A stretch of DNA of 64,000 nt from Methylibium sp. Root1272 (GTDB lineage Bacteria > Pseudomonadota > Gammaproteobacteria > Burkholderiales > Burkholderiaceae_C): the NCBI RefSeq assembly GCF_001425905.1, contig NZ_LMDY01000003.1, positions 52,331 through 116,330 of the forward strand, read 5' to 3'. Below, one piece after another: positions 33,719 to 41,449 of this stretch. Every line of letters begins with the position of its first letter. Position 1 is the stretch's first letter. The notes beneath the pieces were generated by a model that searched no databases, was not told where the DNA came from, and saw only the letters and a program-made list of their open reading frames with translations. The position numbers were made by a program, and so were the translations under genes.

Positions 33719-35170
33719 TTGAGTTCCGCCAAGGGCGACCTGCCCGATCTCGGGCCCCTGTCTCCGTGGGCACCGGAGCTGGCCGAAACCTTCGTGTCGC
33801 TGGCCAGCGACATCGCTCTCGTGATCGACGAGCAGGGCGTGATCCGCAAGGTCGCGCATGGCGGGGCCGTGCCGCTGGAACTCACGGCGCACGACTGGGT
33901 CGGCCGGGCCTGGATCGACACCGTCACCGGCGACACCCGCACGAAGATCGACAAGCTGCTCAGCGAGGTGACCACCACCGGGCTGGCGCGGCGCCGCGAG
34001 GTCAACCACCCGTCGGCCGGCGGCGAGAACATCCCGGTGGCCTACACCGCAGTGCGGCTGGGCGAACACGGCCCGGTGCTGGCGGTGGGGCGCGACCTGC
34101 GCGCCATCGCCGCGATCCAGCAGCGCTTCATCGACGCGCAGCGCGACATGGAGCGCGGCTACTGGGCCACGCGGCAGGCGGAGAGCCGCTACCGGCTGCT
34201 GTTCCAGGTGGCGACCGATGCGGTGCTGGTGGTCGATGCCACCAGCCTGAACATCCTGGAGGCCAACCAGGCCGCGGCCACGCTGTTCGACCTGGGCATC
34301 GAGCAGCTCGTCGGCCGTGCGGCGGTGTTCGGCTTCGAACACCGCTCGCGGCCCGCCGTCGACGAACTGCTGACGACCGCGCGCACCAGCGGCCGGCCGG
34401 CCGAGATCCGTGCGCGGCTGGCCGGCAAGGTCATCGCCACCAGCGTCGCCGCCACGCCGTTCCGGGCCGACGAGCAGATGCGGCTGCTGGTGCGCGTGCG
34501 CGCCATCGACGCACCGCCGGCCGCCGCCCATGCGCTCGACACCACGGTGGTTCGCCTGGTCGACCAGCTCTCCGAAGGTGTGGTCGTCACCGATCCCAGC
34601 GGCCGCATCCAGGTAGCCAACCCGGCCTTCCTGAAGCTCGTGGGCGGCCGCGCCGAGGCCGACCTCAAGGGCCGACCGCTGCTGGACTGGCTGGGGCTGT
34701 CGCCCGCCGACCTGGCCGCGCTGATCCAGCGCGCCCGCAGCCACGGACTCACACGCCGCCATCAGAGCGTGCTGGTGTCGGGTGACGCGGCGCCGGCCCA
34801 GGTGGAGATCGCCGCGGCGCTGCTGGCCGAGGGCGATCAGGAATGCATCGGCTTCACGCTGCGCCGCATTGAACCCCAGGCGGCGGCGATCGCGTCGCCA
34901 CCGCCGACGGTCGTCGACGGACTGCAGGCTGCGCTCGAGCAGCTGACCACGTCGCTCGGCGACGTGGCGCTGCCGGAGCTGATGCGCCAGGCCAGCGCGC
35001 TGACCGAGCGCTACCTGATCGCCGCGGCCCTGGAACGTGCCGGTGGCGACGCCACCGCGGCGGCCGAGTTGCTGCAGGTGAGCCGCCAGAGCCTGGCCCG
35101 GCGCCACCGTCGCCACCCCGATGCGGCGGCACGCGCGCCGCACTCCGACCTCCCGCCGGAAGCACGCTAG
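33719..35170 (+). CDS. Second PpsR-type regulator (PpsR2-like), no HTH cysteine
   Basis: A 483-residue paralogue of the PpsR at 16429, similar along its whole length: SDIALVIDEQGVIRKVA, NHPSAGGENIPVAY, the Q-linker IAAIQQRFIDAQRDMERGYW, two PAS domains and a C-terminal HTH. TTG 33719 was chosen because GGAGGAG lies eight bases before it and the length then matches PpsR; ATG 33617 is the alternative. The redox cysteine of the HTH is replaced by Leu (RYLIAAALE against QLCIEAALQ); the only Cys is in QECIGFTL. The recognition helix ends SRQSLARRHRRHP rather than SRQSLYVKLRRYG, so DNA binding may differ. Its stop overlaps the bphP GTG. In Rhodopseudomonas and Bradyrhizobium such a PpsR2 pairs with BphP1. 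Confidence 0.85.
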   Translation: MSSAKGDLPDLGPLSPWAPELAETFVSLASDIALVIDEQGVIRKVAHGGAVPLELTAHDWVGRAWIDTVTGDTRTKIDKLLSEVTTTGLARRREVNHPSAGGENIPVAYTAVRLGEHGPVLAVGRDLRAIAAIQQRFIDAQRDMERGYWATRQAESRYRLLFQVATDAVLVVDATSLNILEANQAAATLFDLGIEQLVGRAAVFGFEHRSRPAVDELLTTARTSGRPAEIRARLAGKVIATSVAATPFRADEQMRLLVRVRAIDAPPAAAHALDTTVVRLVDQLSEGVVVTDPSGRIQVANPAFLKLVGGRAEADLKGRPLLDWLGLSPADLAALIQRARSHGLTRRHQSVLVSGDAAPAQVEIAAALLAEGDQECIGFTLRRIEPQAAAIASPPPTVVDGLQAALEQLTTSLGDVALPELMRQASALTERYLIAAALERAGGDATAAAELLQVSRQSLARRHRRHPDAAARAPHSDLPPEAR

Positions 35171-37350
35171 TGCCCAACAACCCCGCCTTCGGCCAGGCCG
35201 ACCTCACGAACTGCGAGCGTGAGCTGATCCACCTCGCCGGCTCGATCCAGCCGCACGGGCTGCTGCTGGTGCTGAGCGAGCCGCAGCTGCTGATCACCCA
35301 GCTGAGCGGCAATGCCGAGAGCCTGATCGGCACGCCGGCGTGGAGCCTGCTGAGCCAGCCGCTGCGCGAGTTGGGCGGCGACATCGAGCGGCAGGTACGC
35401 GAGCTGGCCGCGGCCTCCGACCTCGCCGAGCCGGCGCCGCTGCGCTGCCGCGTGCAGGTGGGCGGCGACACCGACGAGTTCGAGGGCGCGGTCCACCGTG
35501 TCGCCGGGATCGGCCTGCTGGTGGAGGTGGAGCCGGCGCATCCGCCGCGCGGCGGGACGGAGATGGTCGACATCGACAGCGAGCGCCTGCTCAAGCAGCT
35601 GAGTGGCGCGATCGAGCGCTTCAGCGCCGCCTCGACCATCGGCACGCTGGCCGATGCCGCGGTGCGCAGCTTCCGCGACCTGATCGGCTACGACCGCTGC
35701 ATGGTCTACAAGTTCGACCCCGACGGCCACGGCAAGATCATCGCGGAGGCCCGCGACCCGCGGCTCGAATCGCTGCTGGGCCACCACTACCCGGCCTCCG
35801 ACATCCCCCAGCGTGCCCGCCAGCTCTACCTGCGCAACCGCCTGCGCGTTCTGGTCGACGTGCACTACGAGCCGGCACCGCTGCTGCCGCGCCGGCCGGC
35901 AGGCTCGGACGAAGAGCTCGACATGTCGATGTCCTACCTGCGCAGCATGTCGCCGCTGCACCTGCAGTACCTGAAGAACATGGGCGTGACCGCGACTCTG
36001 GTGGTCTCGCTGGTGCGCGAGGGGCGGCTGTGGGGGCTGATCGCCTGCCACCACTACGCGCCACGCAACCTGCGCTTCGCGGTGCGCGCGGCGGCCGACC
36101 TGATGACCGAGGTGATCTCCACCCGCATCGCCGCGATCGAGAACTACGCGCACGCGCAGGTCGCCATCCAGGTGCGGCGGCTCGAGCAGCGGCTGGTCGA
36201 GGCCACCTCCACCGAAGGCGACTGGCGGCTGGCGCTGTTCCGCAATCCGCGCACGCTGCTGCAGCCGCTGGACGCGACCGCCGCCGCGCTGTTCTACGAG
36301 GGCGAGGTGCTGACCTCCGGCGAGGCGCCGTCGACGCCGGAGCTGCGCGCGCTGATGGAGTGGGTCGACGTCCAGGCCTTCGACGACGGGCTGTTCAGCT
36401 GCTCGTCGGTCGCGCGCGAGAACCCGGCGCTCGACTCGCTCACGCCCACGGCCAGCGGCGTGCTGGCGGTCAAGCTGTCGACCTCGCGGCCCGACTACCT
36501 GATGTGGTTCCGCAAGGAGCAGCTGCTGTCGGTCACCTGGGCCGGCGACCCGTCCAAGCCGGTGGTCGGCAACGACCCGATGGAGCTGTCGCCACGGCGC
36601 TCGTTCGCTGCCTGGTCGGAGATCGTGCGCGGCACCGCGCTGCCGTGGTCGACCGGCGAGCAGGCGCTGGCGCGCGCCTTCGGCCATTCGCTGATCGACA
36701 TCATCGTGCAGATCAACGCGGTGCGGCTGCTGATCGCTGAACACCAGCTCACGCAGATCCGCAGCACGGTCGAGCATTCCAAGGAGCCGATCGTCGTCGC
36801 CGATGCCGAGCGCCGTGCGCTGTTCGCCAACGACGCCTTCTTCGCGCTTGCCGGACGTCCGCGCGAGTCGCGGCCCACGCTCGACGAGATGGCGACGCTG
36901 TTCACCGAGCCGAAGATCGTGCGCTCGGTGCTGAACACGCTCGCGCTGGAGCGCCAGCCGTGGCGCGGCGACCTGGCGCTCGACCTGGGAGAGGGCCGCA
37001 CCCGTGCGGTGGCCGTGCGCGCCGAGGTCGTGCCGGCGCGCGACGGATCGGTGCTGGGTTACTTCCTGATCTTCGCCGACCTCACCGAAAGCCAGCGCGC
37101 CGAGGCGGCGCGGCGCCACCTCGAGCAATCGCTGACGCGTGGCGAGGCGGACGCCGCTGCGCCGTCCCGCACGCCGAACGATTCCGACGAGTTGATCAAC
37201 GCGATCTTCGCCAACGCCAGCCTCGCCGCGATGGACATCGCCGACGGCAATGCCTCGCCGTCGGTCGCGCCCCTGCTCGAGGAACTCGAGGCCTCGACCC
37301 GGCGTGCCGCCTCGCTCTACGGGCTCATCCGCCGCTTCGGCGGATCCTGA
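35170..37350 (+). CDS. bphP: Bacteriophytochrome, PAS-GAF-PHY-PAS with short output region
   Basis: A 726-residue red/far-red photoreceptor. Cys15 (TNCERELIHLAGSIQPHG) is the biliverdin attachment site in the PAS domain. PASDIPQRARQLY (about 208-220) is the GAF chromophore motif. The PHY tongue shows WFRKEQLLSVTWAG and PRRSFAAW. After about residue 520 comes another PAS domain (EPIVVADAERRALFANDAFF), then some 70 residues with DSDELINAIFANASLAAMDI, lacking the H, N and G boxes of a histidine kinase. This is the layout of BphP1 of Rhodopseudomonas palustris, which relieves PpsR2 repression by direct binding. GTG 35170 overlaps the PpsR2 stop. Confidence 0.93.
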   Translation: MPNNPAFGQADLTNCERELIHLAGSIQPHGLLLVLSEPQLLITQLSGNAESLIGTPAWSLLSQPLRELGGDIERQVRELAAASDLAEPAPLRCRVQVGGDTDEFEGAVHRVAGIGLLVEVEPAHPPRGGTEMVDIDSERLLKQLSGAIERFSAASTIGTLADAAVRSFRDLIGYDRCMVYKFDPDGHGKIIAEARDPRLESLLGHHYPASDIPQRARQLYLRNRLRVLVDVHYEPAPLLPRRPAGSDEELDMSMSYLRSMSPLHLQYLKNMGVTATLVVSLVREGRLWGLIACHHYAPRNLRFAVRAAADLMTEVISTRIAAIENYAHAQVAIQVRRLEQRLVEATSTEGDWRLALFRNPRTLLQPLDATAAALFYEGEVLTSGEAPSTPELRALMEWVDVQAFDDGLFSCSSVARENPALDSLTPTASGVLAVKLSTSRPDYLMWFRKEQLLSVTWAGDPSKPVVGNDPMELSPRRSFAAWSEIVRGTALPWSTGEQALARAFGHSLIDIIVQINAVRLLIAEHQLTQIRSTVEHSKEPIVVADAERRALFANDAFFALAGRPRESRPTLDEMATLFTEPKIVRSVLNTLALERQPWRGDLALDLGEGRTRAVAVRAEVVPARDGSVLGYFLIFADLTESQRAEAARRHLEQSLTRGEADAAAPSRTPNDSDELINAIFANASLAAMDIADGNASPSVAPLLEELEASTRRAASLYGLIRRFGGS

Positions 37351-37376
37351 CGGTCTTCAGGCGCGCGATCCTTCGG

Positions 37377-38024
37377 TCACGACGGCCGAGGCGCTTCCGC
37401 ATGGAGCTGATCGAACAACTCCGCGTGCATCGCGAAGGCGCGCCGCGCCTCGTCGACCACGGCGTCCGCATCGGCTTCGGTGGCGGCAGCGGCCTCGAGG
37501 CCGGCGCGGAAGCGCTGCTTGAGCTGGGCAGTCTCTTCGGAACGGCCGAAGTCATAGAAGCGCACGCCCTCGCCGCTGCGCAGGCCGAGCTGCTCCGAGA
37601 CGATGCGCGCCAGCACCTGACCGCCGCTCAGGTCGCCGAGGTAGCGCACGTAGGCGTGCGCCACCAGCCGTTCCGGTTGCCCGGCGACGAGTGCGGTCAG
37701 ATGCCGCGCGTACGCGGCGGCAGACGATTGCATTGCGATGTCGCTCGGCCAGTCGGGTCCGTGCAGCAGGTCCAGGTCCGCGCGCAACGCGGGCTCGCGC
37801 CACAGCGCCGGCGAGCAGACCGGCGCGACGCCGGGATGGGCCGCACAGGCTGCGAGCCCGGCCTCGAGCTCCTGGTAGATCGGGTGCAGGTTGCGCAGCA
37901 GTGCGCAGTAGGTTCGCTGCGGCATGCGGCCCCGCAGCAGTTGCTGCATCAGGGCGCTGCGTTCCAGTTCAACGTGCTGCGCTCGGGTCTCGCTTCGCAG
38001 GCGCTCGGCCAGGGTCACGCTCAA
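37377..38024 (-). CDS. Heme oxygenase (biliverdin supply for BphP)
   Basis: A 215-residue heme oxygenase that opens heme to biliverdin, the chromophore of bacteriophytochromes. The proximal histidine is in ETRAQHVELERS near residue 17, and the distal-helix motif LGDLSGGQVLARIV is present. The TTG at 38024 is used because GGAG sits seven bases ahead; a GTG at 38018 is possible. The gene is convergent with bphP (26-base gap), so it is on its own transcript, yet placed beside the photoreceptor that needs its product. Confidence 0.92.
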   Translation of the reverse strand: MSVTLAERLRSETRAQHVELERSALMQQLLRGRMPQRTYCALLRNLHPIYQELEAGLAACAAHPGVAPVCSPALWREPALRADLDLLHGPDWPSDIAMQSSAAAYARHLTALVAGQPERLVAHAYVRYLGDLSGGQVLARIVSEQLGLRSGEGVRFYDFGRSEETAQLKQRFRAGLEAAAATEADADAVVDEARRAFAMHAELFDQLHAEAPRPS

Positions 38025-38159: not shown

Positions 38160-39527
38160 TCAGCGCAGCGCCACCTCGACGCGCCGTGCTGCCGGATCCT
38201 CGCCAGACAGGTTGGCCTCGGCCGATTGCGGCTTCTCGAGCTGGATGCGATCCTCGGTGATGCCGGCCGCCTTCAGCGCGTCGCGCACCGCAAAGGCGCG
38301 CTGCTTCGCCAGTCCCTGGTTCTGCGACAGGGTGCCGGCCGCAGAGTGGTAGCCCGACAGCACCGCCTTCGAATCGGGGCTCGCCTTCAGCGCCTGGATC
38401 ACCGGCGCCAGCGTCTTCTCCGCGTCGCCGGCCAGCGATGAGGAGCCCACGTCGAAGAACAGCACCGCGCTCTGTGCGGCTGGGGCCCCGGCGGCCGGGG
38501 CGGCGACCGACACCCGGGTGCCACCGGCGAGTTCGGGGTGGTCCTTCAGCATGCTCGCGCCGTAGAGCGGCTTGTAGGCGCCCTGGTGGCAGGTCGAGCA
38601 GTTGACCTTGGCCACGTCGCCGGTCGGCCCGTTGCGCTCGGCCGGGAACACCGACGTCAGCGGCTCCAGGTAGGCCGCGTTCAGGTCGCGCGCCATGCGG
38701 ATGCCGTACCACGCCGTGGTGCGCTGCGGCGTGCTCTGATCCCAGGTCGAGAACGAGCGGCTGTTGTGGCAATAGGTGCAGTTGACGCCCAGCGACTCCG
38801 ACATGTGGACCATCAGCCCGTAAGTGCCCTCGGTCTGCTTGATGGATTTCCGGTTGCCCGACGGCAGCGGCGTGTCGCCCACCACGCGGATGTCCGCCGC
38901 CTGCGACAGGTAGGCTGTGAACGGGTCGTAGGGCAGCGAGGTCAGTCCGACCGACTTCGCCGGGCTGTTCTGTCCCGCGTCGTCGCCGACCATGCCGGCC
39001 GTCTGCCTGTGCGGCGGCGCGCTGAACCAGGTCTGCGCCGGCACCGGCTGGCCGCGGTGGCAGGTGAAGCAGGTGACGCCGGTCTCGGCGACGTGCGACT
39101 TGAAGTCGGTGTTGATGTGGCGCGTCATCTGCAGCATCTTGCGGGCGACGACCTTGGTGTACAGCGCGTCTTCCGACAGGTCCTTGCCGGCGGCGTGGCA
39201 GTAGGTGCAACCCTGCTCGGGCGCTACCCACGCGGTGATGGCGGCCATCGTGCGCGTGAACTCGCCCACGCTGCTGTCGCCGAGCACCTGCACGTTCTTG
39301 AACACGTCCTTGGCACGCGGCCCCTCCGCGCTGACCGCCGGCAACGGCTCCGGCACCTGGTTGACCACCGCCTGAGCCTCCAGGGTGCGCGGGTTGTAGA
39401 TCTGGTCCATGCCGGTGCCGCGGTAGCCGCGCTGCACGCTGTCGACCGGTGGTCGCTCGCAGCCGACGAGCATCAGCAGCAGGGCCGTCAGCGCGAGCCC
39501 CAGCGAGGTGTGGGCGATGCGTCTCAT
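38160..39527 (-). CDS. pufC: Reaction-center tetraheme cytochrome c with C-terminal OmpA-like domain
   Basis: A 455-residue lipoprotein. The signal ends at lipobox LMLVGC (Cys23), so the N-terminus should be lipid-anchored on the periplasmic side. Four CxxCH heme sites start at residues 107, 153, 250 and 310, the PufC pattern; the protein re-reduces the special pair. After an Ala/Pro linker (about 340-352), residues 353-455 form an OmpA-type domain: [48 protein letters not shown]. The Arg of the peptidoglycan site is kept (KQRA), but the usual Asp (GHTD) is Ser. Ordinary PufC proteins end near residue 330-350 of this one. It overlaps pufM by ATGA. Confidence 0.95.
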
Positions 39528-40501
39528 GGCTTCACTCCCTGCAGCAAGGACGGGTCCACGACCGGCGTGAAGACCATCGGGTAGACCGGCGCGACGTGGT
39601 GTTTCACGGCCCACAGGTACCAGTTGTCGACCACGGTGCCGGTCAGCAGGATGCCGATGCCGCCGCACAGCGGACACAGCACCGCGAACCACCAGGCCCA
39701 GCGATGGATCGACTCCATCGTGGCGTTGAAGCCCATGGTCCAGCGCCAGAACAGCGCGGCACGCTCGGAGGCGGTGCCGCGATCGACGATCTGCTCGATC
39801 TCGCGCTCGCCGCCGAAGCGACTGACCGCGAGGATGGTCGCGCCGTGCATCGCGAACAGCAGCGTCGAGCCGTAGAGGAAGGCGATCGACAGCATGTGGA
39901 AGGGGTTGTAGAACAGGTTGCCGTAGCGGATCGAGAAGGCCGCGGTCCAGTCGAGGTGCGGGAAGATGCCGAACGGCACCGCCTCGCCCCAGCTGCCCAT
40001 CAGCAGCGGGCGGATGAAGCCCAGCACCAGGTAGAGCCAGATCGCCGCCGCGAAGGCCCAGGCGACGTGCGTGCCCATGCCGAGCGCGCGGGCACGGCGG
40101 TACATGCGCACCCACCACAGCAGGATCGACGCGGTGAGGAAGAAGCCCGCCATCAGCCACCAGCCGCCCTGGTTGAGCGGCGGCAGCTCCAGCCCGTACT
40201 GTGGCGGTGGCGGCTCGAGCGCGAGCCACGGCAGCTGACGGACGAACTGGATCGGATCCCAGTTCACCGAGGCCAGCATGTTCAGGCCGATGATCTCGAA
40301 GGCGATGAAGAAGCAGAGCAGCGACGCGAGGCCGAGCCAGCCCAGGTAGATCGGTCCGATCTGCGCATCGCCGAAGCGGCCGAGCAGGTGCACGTGCGCC
40401 GGGGGCCCCTCGCGCTCCTTGTTGCCGCGCGCGAGCGGAATGCCGGCATAGGCCGGCGCCACCGCCTGCACGCGGGTGAAGATGTTCTGGTACTCGGCCA
40501 T
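39524..40501 (-). CDS. pufM: Photosynthetic reaction center M subunit
   Basis: A 325-residue five-helix core subunit holding half of the special pair and QA. The histidines that bind bacteriochlorophyll and iron are at 182, 202, 219 and 266, the canonical numbers (for example [26 protein letters not shown]). The C-terminal extension beyond the last helix ([20 protein letters not shown]) is the docking side for PufC. It lies between pufL and pufC and overlaps pufC by four bases. Confidence 0.98.
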
Positions 40502-40555: not shown

Positions 40556-41380
40556 TCAGCGCCAGATCGGGAGGTTGAGCCACCAGCTCCACCACTCCGG
40601 CCAGCCGCGCGTCCAGAACGGGCCGCTGATGACGATGCAGACGGCGCTCCAGAAGCCGGCCGACAGCGCGAGGAACAGGCCCAGACGGTGGATGCCCAGC
40701 GTGCCGATCGAGTAGCCGATCGTGTCGCGGAAGAAGGTGTTCTCGTGTTCGGCGGTCTTCACCGGCTCGCCCGGCGCCGGGTTGGTGGACGACAGGATGA
40801 GCGCGCCGTGCAGCGACAGCGCGAAGGTCGTCGCGAAGAAGAAGCTCACCGCGAGCATGTGCGCGGGGTTGTAGTGGAAGTGCAGATACTGGTAGCCGGT
40901 GTTGGACACCCAGTCCAGGTGGCTCATGATTCCGTAGGGAAAGCCGTGCCCCCAGGCGCCCAGCAGCACCGGCCGCACCACGACCAGCGTGACGTAGGCC
41001 AGGATCGCCACCGAGAAGGCGAAGGGTACGTGGTAGCCGATGCCGAGCTTGCGGCAGATCTCCACCTCGCGCAGCGCCCACGACACGAAGGCGCCGATCG
41101 CACACACGGTGATCAGCTGCCACAGCCCGCCCTCCATCAGCGGCGCCATGCCCAGGCCGTACTTCAGGTCGGGTGGCGCGATGCTGATCTGCCAGAGGTT
41201 CCAGGTCGGGCCCTGCGAGGCACCCCATACGATCATCAGCGTGCCGACCAGCGCGAAGAAGGCCGTCGTGACGCCGAAGAAGCCGACGTAGAACGGCCCC
41301 ACCCAGAAGTCGAAGAGGTCTCCGCCGGTCAGCGTGCCGCCGCGTACGCGGTACTTCCGTTCAAAACTGAGCATGGCCAT
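40556..41380 (-). CDS. pufL: Photosynthetic reaction center L subunit
   Basis: A 274-residue five-helix core subunit. ATG 41380 gives [15 protein letters not shown], the standard start; a GTG two codons earlier is less likely. Histidines at 154, 174, 191 and 231 become L153, L173, L190 and L230 once the initiator Met is removed, so special-pair, accessory chlorophyll and iron ligands are all present. GAGGA lies eight bases before the ATG. A GC hairpin separates it from pufA. Confidence 0.98.
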
Positions 41381-41449
41381 GGTCACATCCTCATGCGGAA
41401 GGCCGACTGCACGTGGCCTTCGGGTTGCCGCGATTCACGGCAGACGGGT

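Follow-up and report, generated by a model that had tools for sequence, protein, structure and literature searches.

A PufC reaction-centre cytochrome fused to an OmpA-like domain with serine at the position of the diaminopimelate-contacting aspartate

The cytochrome PufC sits on the reaction centre at its periplasmic side. To our knowledge, the placement of inner-membrane photosynthetic and respiratory complexes with respect to the cell wall is a largely open question. OmpA-like domains have been described on PufC and on three PufM proteins in PMC12650329 (Biomolecules, Oct 2025), the accessible part of which calls such fusions rare, allows that gene models may be wrong, and places the domain of PufC N-terminally in the text and C-terminally in a figure legend. 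The motif of OmpA-like domains that bind diaminopimelate (DAP) is TD(x)7NxxLSxxRA, the Asp, Asn and Arg being the most critical residues according to the available sections of PMC5104382, and D268 mediates the association of Acinetobacter OmpA with peptidoglycan (PMC6572160). For Tp0624, which has Ala at the Asp position and keeps the Arg, DAP binding was not demonstrable in soaks or calorimetry; since Tp0624 also has Glu/Gln at the Asn position and comes from a spirochaete host, it provides no clean test (PMC5104382, same sections).

The window analysed here, a stretch of 64,000 nucleotides from Methylibium sp. Root1272, contains at positions 38160-39527 (minus strand, as for all features of this gene and for pufM) a pufC-ompA fusion of 455 residues in a single open frame. 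PF02276 covers the PufC part over the whole profile (positions 1-310 of 310; E-value 8e-147, 488.9 bits), and NF040706 scores 492.5 against a cut-off of 150. Residues 1-23 (39459..39527) comprise a signal peptide and the sequence LMLVGC, which, reading by eye, we take to be a lipobox, with Cys23 predicted to be lipid-modified. The tetrahaem reaction-centre cytochrome domain (residues 24-334; 38526..39458) carries the haem sites CTYCH at residues 107-111 (39195..39209), CFTCH at 153-157 (39057..39071), CTYCH at 250-254 (38766..38780) and CSTCH at 310-314 (38586..38600). A linker with an Ala/Pro-rich stretch (residues 335-352; 38472..38525), predicted to be flexible from pLDDT values below 50 at residues 338-350, leads to the OmpA-like domain (residues 353-455; 38163..38471), which matches PF00691 with an E-value of 1.5e-12 and 48.1 bits against a curated cut-off of 27.2 and has an OmpA-like fold. 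The four CxxCH sites, the lipobox, the in-frame linker with its OmpA-type domain and an overlap with pufM had all been read from the letters in a preliminary description and are borne out, the overlap amounting to 4 bases (pufM, 39524..40501; PF00124, E-value 5.6e-112).

Two PF00124 genes (40556-41386 and 39524-40501) lie upstream of pufC, L and M being assigned by gene order, and pufC sits downstream of pufLM, in the operon place expected of PufC. GC content across the fused gene is 0.67-0.72, a base composition that gives no sign of a recent foreign insertion. Downstream of pufC comes a haem oxygenase gene with the same orientation, towards which a phytochrome-type photoreceptor gene (PAS-GAF-PHY-PAS) runs from the opposite side, both within window positions 35170-38024.

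The PufC-OmpA fusion is real and no artefact. Both domains are fused in frame in all 120 listed homologues (best 120 of 7329), a set drawn from several sources that is skewed toward the fused architecture and includes near-duplicates. A search with the tail region, whose candidates were proteins of roughly 250-800 residues, gave PF02276 together with PF00691 in every one of its best 120 of 159 matches. An in-frame tail is also present at 36 of the 108 distinct PufC loci, and at one of these the contig ends within the tail. A sequencing frameshift or a chimera joining pufC to another gene, the former raised in the preliminary description, is ruled out by the single frame and by the homologues. 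That assembly or gene modelling fused two genes is mentioned as possible for Puf-OmpA fusions in the accessible part of PMC12650329, but the recurrence of the same in-frame fusion in those homologues and at a third of the distinct loci reduces its probability to almost nothing, and for PufC the present data remove the doubt.

Compared with the DAP-binding motif, the window tail reads HS(x)7NxxLAxxRA: Asn403 and Arg410 are present, and the DAP-contacting Asp is missing, its position being held in the tail comparison by Ser395 (codon TCT; 38343..38345). The exchange, already remarked upon from the single sequence, is no quirk of one gene. Ser occupies the position in 121 of 121 sequences (the window protein and the best 120 of 7329 homologues) and in every one of the 26 distinct tails that make up the window's clade, so that the early caution that binding may differ is well founded. 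The Asp is kept in 9/9 tails of a second PufC clade and in 45 of the 46 tails on other hosts (among them 11/12 on the membrane pyrophosphatase HppA and, on oxidase subunits, CoxB 5/5, CcoO 1/1 and CcoP 1/1). One HppA tail (L190, genome G258) has Ala at this position, apparently through an independent loss. None of the 80 tails compared departs from Asn403 or Arg410, and the motif Arg is found in all 84 rows of an alignment that includes three ordinary OmpA-type control domains encoded in the window's genome. The Ser clade is further marked by a loop at residues 439-444 (38196..38213), conserved within it and not in other tails, which comprises N439 (26/26), a two-residue insertion, E443 (26/26) and D444 (24/26). 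One pocket residue is thus changed and fixed, and the remainder of the pocket motif is undecayed.

The tail recurs in other Burkholderiales, where the preliminary description had proposed to look for it, but as a minority trait. PufC is present in 47 of the 399 genomes that were sampled in the window's order; PufC matches reach the tail end in nine of these (one split between contigs), and the remaining 38 have no match extending that far. For the history of the tail, 119 loci with a PufC match were reduced to 108 by removing repeat loci, loci whose cytochrome parts were identical, and matches of fewer than 150 positions. Ser-type tails are present at 27 loci, including one (L104) where the contig ends just before the Ser position and which was classed by the remaining tail and is absent from later counts; nine loci have Asp-type tails and 72 are tailless. 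A quick method, on a cytochrome-domain tree with many weak forks, gives 18 tail-state changes, and at least six are forced by well-supported branches. Tail state differs within well-supported pairs, one of two Variovorax and one of two Rhizobacter; since many PufC lack the tail and close relatives differ in having it, reaction-centre function does not depend on it. Behind pufC in the 72 tailless loci, no remnant of a tail scores 15 bits or more; of these loci, 71 stop in frame and one (L160) runs off its contig; the 72 include L129, which has a tblastn match to query residue 411 and shows no tail.

In the tail tree, the Ser tails form one clade (support 100/97) and the Asp tails of PufC another (100/99). 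A single clade of all PufC tails is not rejected by the AU test (p 0.54, on a tree that left out the Pal control and the stub L209), and for this reason two separate origins are not claimed. Across 36 pairs of tailed relatives, which exclude the window gene and in some cases represent the same gene from two collections, dN/dS is 0.04-0.30 for the tail and 0.05-0.53 for the cytochrome part; these ratios show purifying selection acting on the tail in relatives. In the Methylibium genome G001, the tailed pufC falls into two frames near residue 145, perhaps by an assembly error, and a different contig carries another pufC, which is tailless and has no second pufM (L083, L125). Genome G010 has one pufM, one tailed pufC and a second pufC match (C22:129075-130103) that ends before the tail. 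The idea that the second pufC copies of G001, G010 and G016 mark a further reaction-centre operon was rejected, each genome having one pufM match at an E-value of 1e-40 or better.

Judged by sequence, the PufC tail belongs to a distinct OmpA-like subfamily shared with other membrane proteins of Burkholderiales. The window's genome has 12 PF00691 matches, 10 of them above the cut-off, and three carriers of the subfamily: PufC, an HppA of 822 residues whose C-terminal tail is 50% identical to that of PufC, and a small protein, apparently with a single membrane helix, that is close kin of the PufC tail. Relatives carry the subfamily fused to the cytochrome oxidase subunits CcoO, CcoP and CoxB, the last together with cytochrome c, as well as to an apparent membrane cytochrome c and to a YidB-like protein. 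C-terminal subfamily tails are seen, for instance, on CcoO (L081:2649-3752, plus strand), CcoP (L074:3919-5226, minus strand) and CoxB (L077:3903-5537, minus strand). An ammonium transporter (Amt; L076:3636-5417, plus strand) carries the domain N-terminally, behind an apparent signal peptide. NCBIfam places the HppA, CcoO, CcoP, CoxB and Amt hosts above its cut-offs, and the CcoO, CcoP and Amt fusions are also confirmed by Pfam.

A profile built from 12 tails (A3) gives 25 matches of at least 92 bits in 17 of the 120 genomes covered in the order (each at least 95% complete, own genome included), the next best match scoring 65.6 bits. The hosts are HppA (10, one scored from a stub of 42 residues where a contig ends), CoxB (4), PufC (3), single-helix proteins recognized by eye (5), and an HlyD adaptor, a BON protein and a DUF937 protein (one each), a tally that describes the contents of the subfamily and is no unbiased census, as the profile was made from such tails. 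The HlyD adaptor, BON, DUF937, YidB-like and Amt hosts are not energy-converting. Across the phylum, with at most 14 candidates scored per genome, the subfamily is found in 11 of 349 genomes (own included), ten belonging to the window's order and the eleventh to a different order within its class. A search with the HppA tail, under length limits that favour large hosts, returned PF03030 with PF00691 in all of the best 120 of 894 proteins, the named ones being mostly from Burkholderiales and one from a MAG labelled Nitrospira. The single-helix OmpA-like proteins show no constant neighbour gene by eye in seven loci.

The domain-bearing ends of HppA, CoxB, CcoO, CcoP and Amt are expected to be periplasmic. 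In the fusion, the cytochrome would put the OmpA-like domain on the same side of the membrane, and the flexible linker could let it reach outward from RC-LH1 and dock in the periplasm. Without the Asp, the pocket would no longer fit the free amine of diaminopimelate, and Arg and Asn would remain able to bind a carboxylate. Because the Asp is absent and the Arg kept, the ligand would more likely be a carboxylate without the DAP amine, probably a different group of the wall or a carboxylate of a protein partner. Such docking would limit the location of RC-LH1 cores or their packing. A docking pocket that is retained, with a changed ligand, is thus the reading we favour over a conventional peptidoglycan anchor, at even chances, since Ser is fixed, Asn and Arg are invariant, and Tp0624, lacking the Asp and also the Asn, could not be shown to bind DAP (PMC5104382). 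The patchy occurrence of the tail on PufC and the subfamily hosts that convert no energy count against this reading. By analogy, Tp0624 supports rather than proves a loss of DAP binding in the PufC tail. The tethering of RC-LH1 proposed in the preliminary description therefore survives in part: attachment in the periplasm is plausible because the subfamily is also carried by several other energy-converting proteins of the inner membrane, and the Tp0624 precedent makes a conventional DAP-type wall anchor less likely.

Such an anchor would bind the wall through Arg410 and Asn403, perhaps with E443 or D444 replacing the Asp, and so tie RC-LH1 to it. The fold and the remaining motif are kept, E443 and D444 could supply the lost charge, and the relatives on HppA, CoxB, CcoO and CcoP, with the single HppA exception, keep both Asp and Arg. 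However, few residues are as closely tied to DAP binding as the Asp (PMC5104382, PMC6572160), the two model blocks that make up residues 431-450 and include E443 and D444 have pLDDT values of 69 and 74, and the failure to demonstrate DAP binding by Tp0624 likewise weighs against the anchor, which we regard as possible but doubtful. If, instead, the tail were a passenger, an easily gained and lost module with no specific photosynthetic function, its patchy spread, with the tail-state changes counted above and the 38 PufC-bearing genomes without a match to its end, would be readily accommodated. Yet dN/dS of the tail is well below 1 in all 36 pairs, Ser395, N439 and E443 are fixed across the clade, and the tailless loci hold no relics at the threshold used, all of which makes a passenger unlikely. 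A further reading, that cleavage of the linker follows export and frees the OmpA-like part to act alone, is consistent with the predicted flexibility of the linker and with subfamily members that have no large host protein; these small members, however, keep an apparent membrane helix (by eye), which suggests that the subfamily is normally membrane-held and renders release quite improbable.

The retained pocket with a changed ligand can be extended, more tentatively, to the subfamily as a whole: possibly, though with well under even chances, it constitutes a periplasmic docking module that Burkholderiales share among reaction centres, oxidases and ion-pumping pyrophosphatases and that places them in the envelope, the pocket of the photosynthetic branch having switched from DAP to a new ligand that organises RC-LH1. 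The recurrent domain on PufC, HppA, CoxB, CcoO and CcoP offers one handle on the placement of photosynthetic and respiratory complexes with respect to the wall, and it comes with natural controls in the tailed and tailless PufC of close relatives and in the Asp and Ser versions of one pocket. In the literature searched, judged mostly by title and the start of the abstract and largely outside subscription papers and preprints, no report was found of the wider host pattern or of the missing Asp in PufC.

Compared with the PufC of RC-LH1 (PF02276, NF040706), the window protein has the same full cytochrome domain, four haem sites, lipobox and place after pufM, and adds a C-terminal OmpA-like domain; among the best 60 of 71 PDB matches, PufC chains match no further than query residue 384, and only OmpA-type chains, which are separate, match the tail. 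Photosystem I PsaB in PDB entry 7f4v (chain aB), presumably from Gloeobacter, matches the tail profile at residues 755-839 of 872 (E-value 4.1e-8). PsaB is likewise a light-reaction core protein with a match near its C terminus, but of a type I photosystem, and the match hints that another photosystem may have acquired such a domain. The fusion itself is already in print (PMC12650329, 2025); the other hosts of the subfamily and the fixed Ser go further, the accessible part of that article mentioning neither the missing Asp nor other energy-converting hosts. The tails on HppA, CoxB, CcoO and CcoP belong to the same subfamily and are 44-50% identical to the window tail (four examples), but mostly retain the pocket Asp where the window tail has Ser. 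Against the Acinetobacter baumannii OmpA-like domain with bound peptide (3td5), Pal and OprF, the window tail has Ser for Asp, differs in its last part and is carried by a reaction-centre cytochrome. Tp0624 has likewise lost the pocket Asp across a clade while keeping the motif Arg, but with Ala instead of Ser, Glu/Gln instead of Asn and an unrelated host protein (PMC5104382, available sections).
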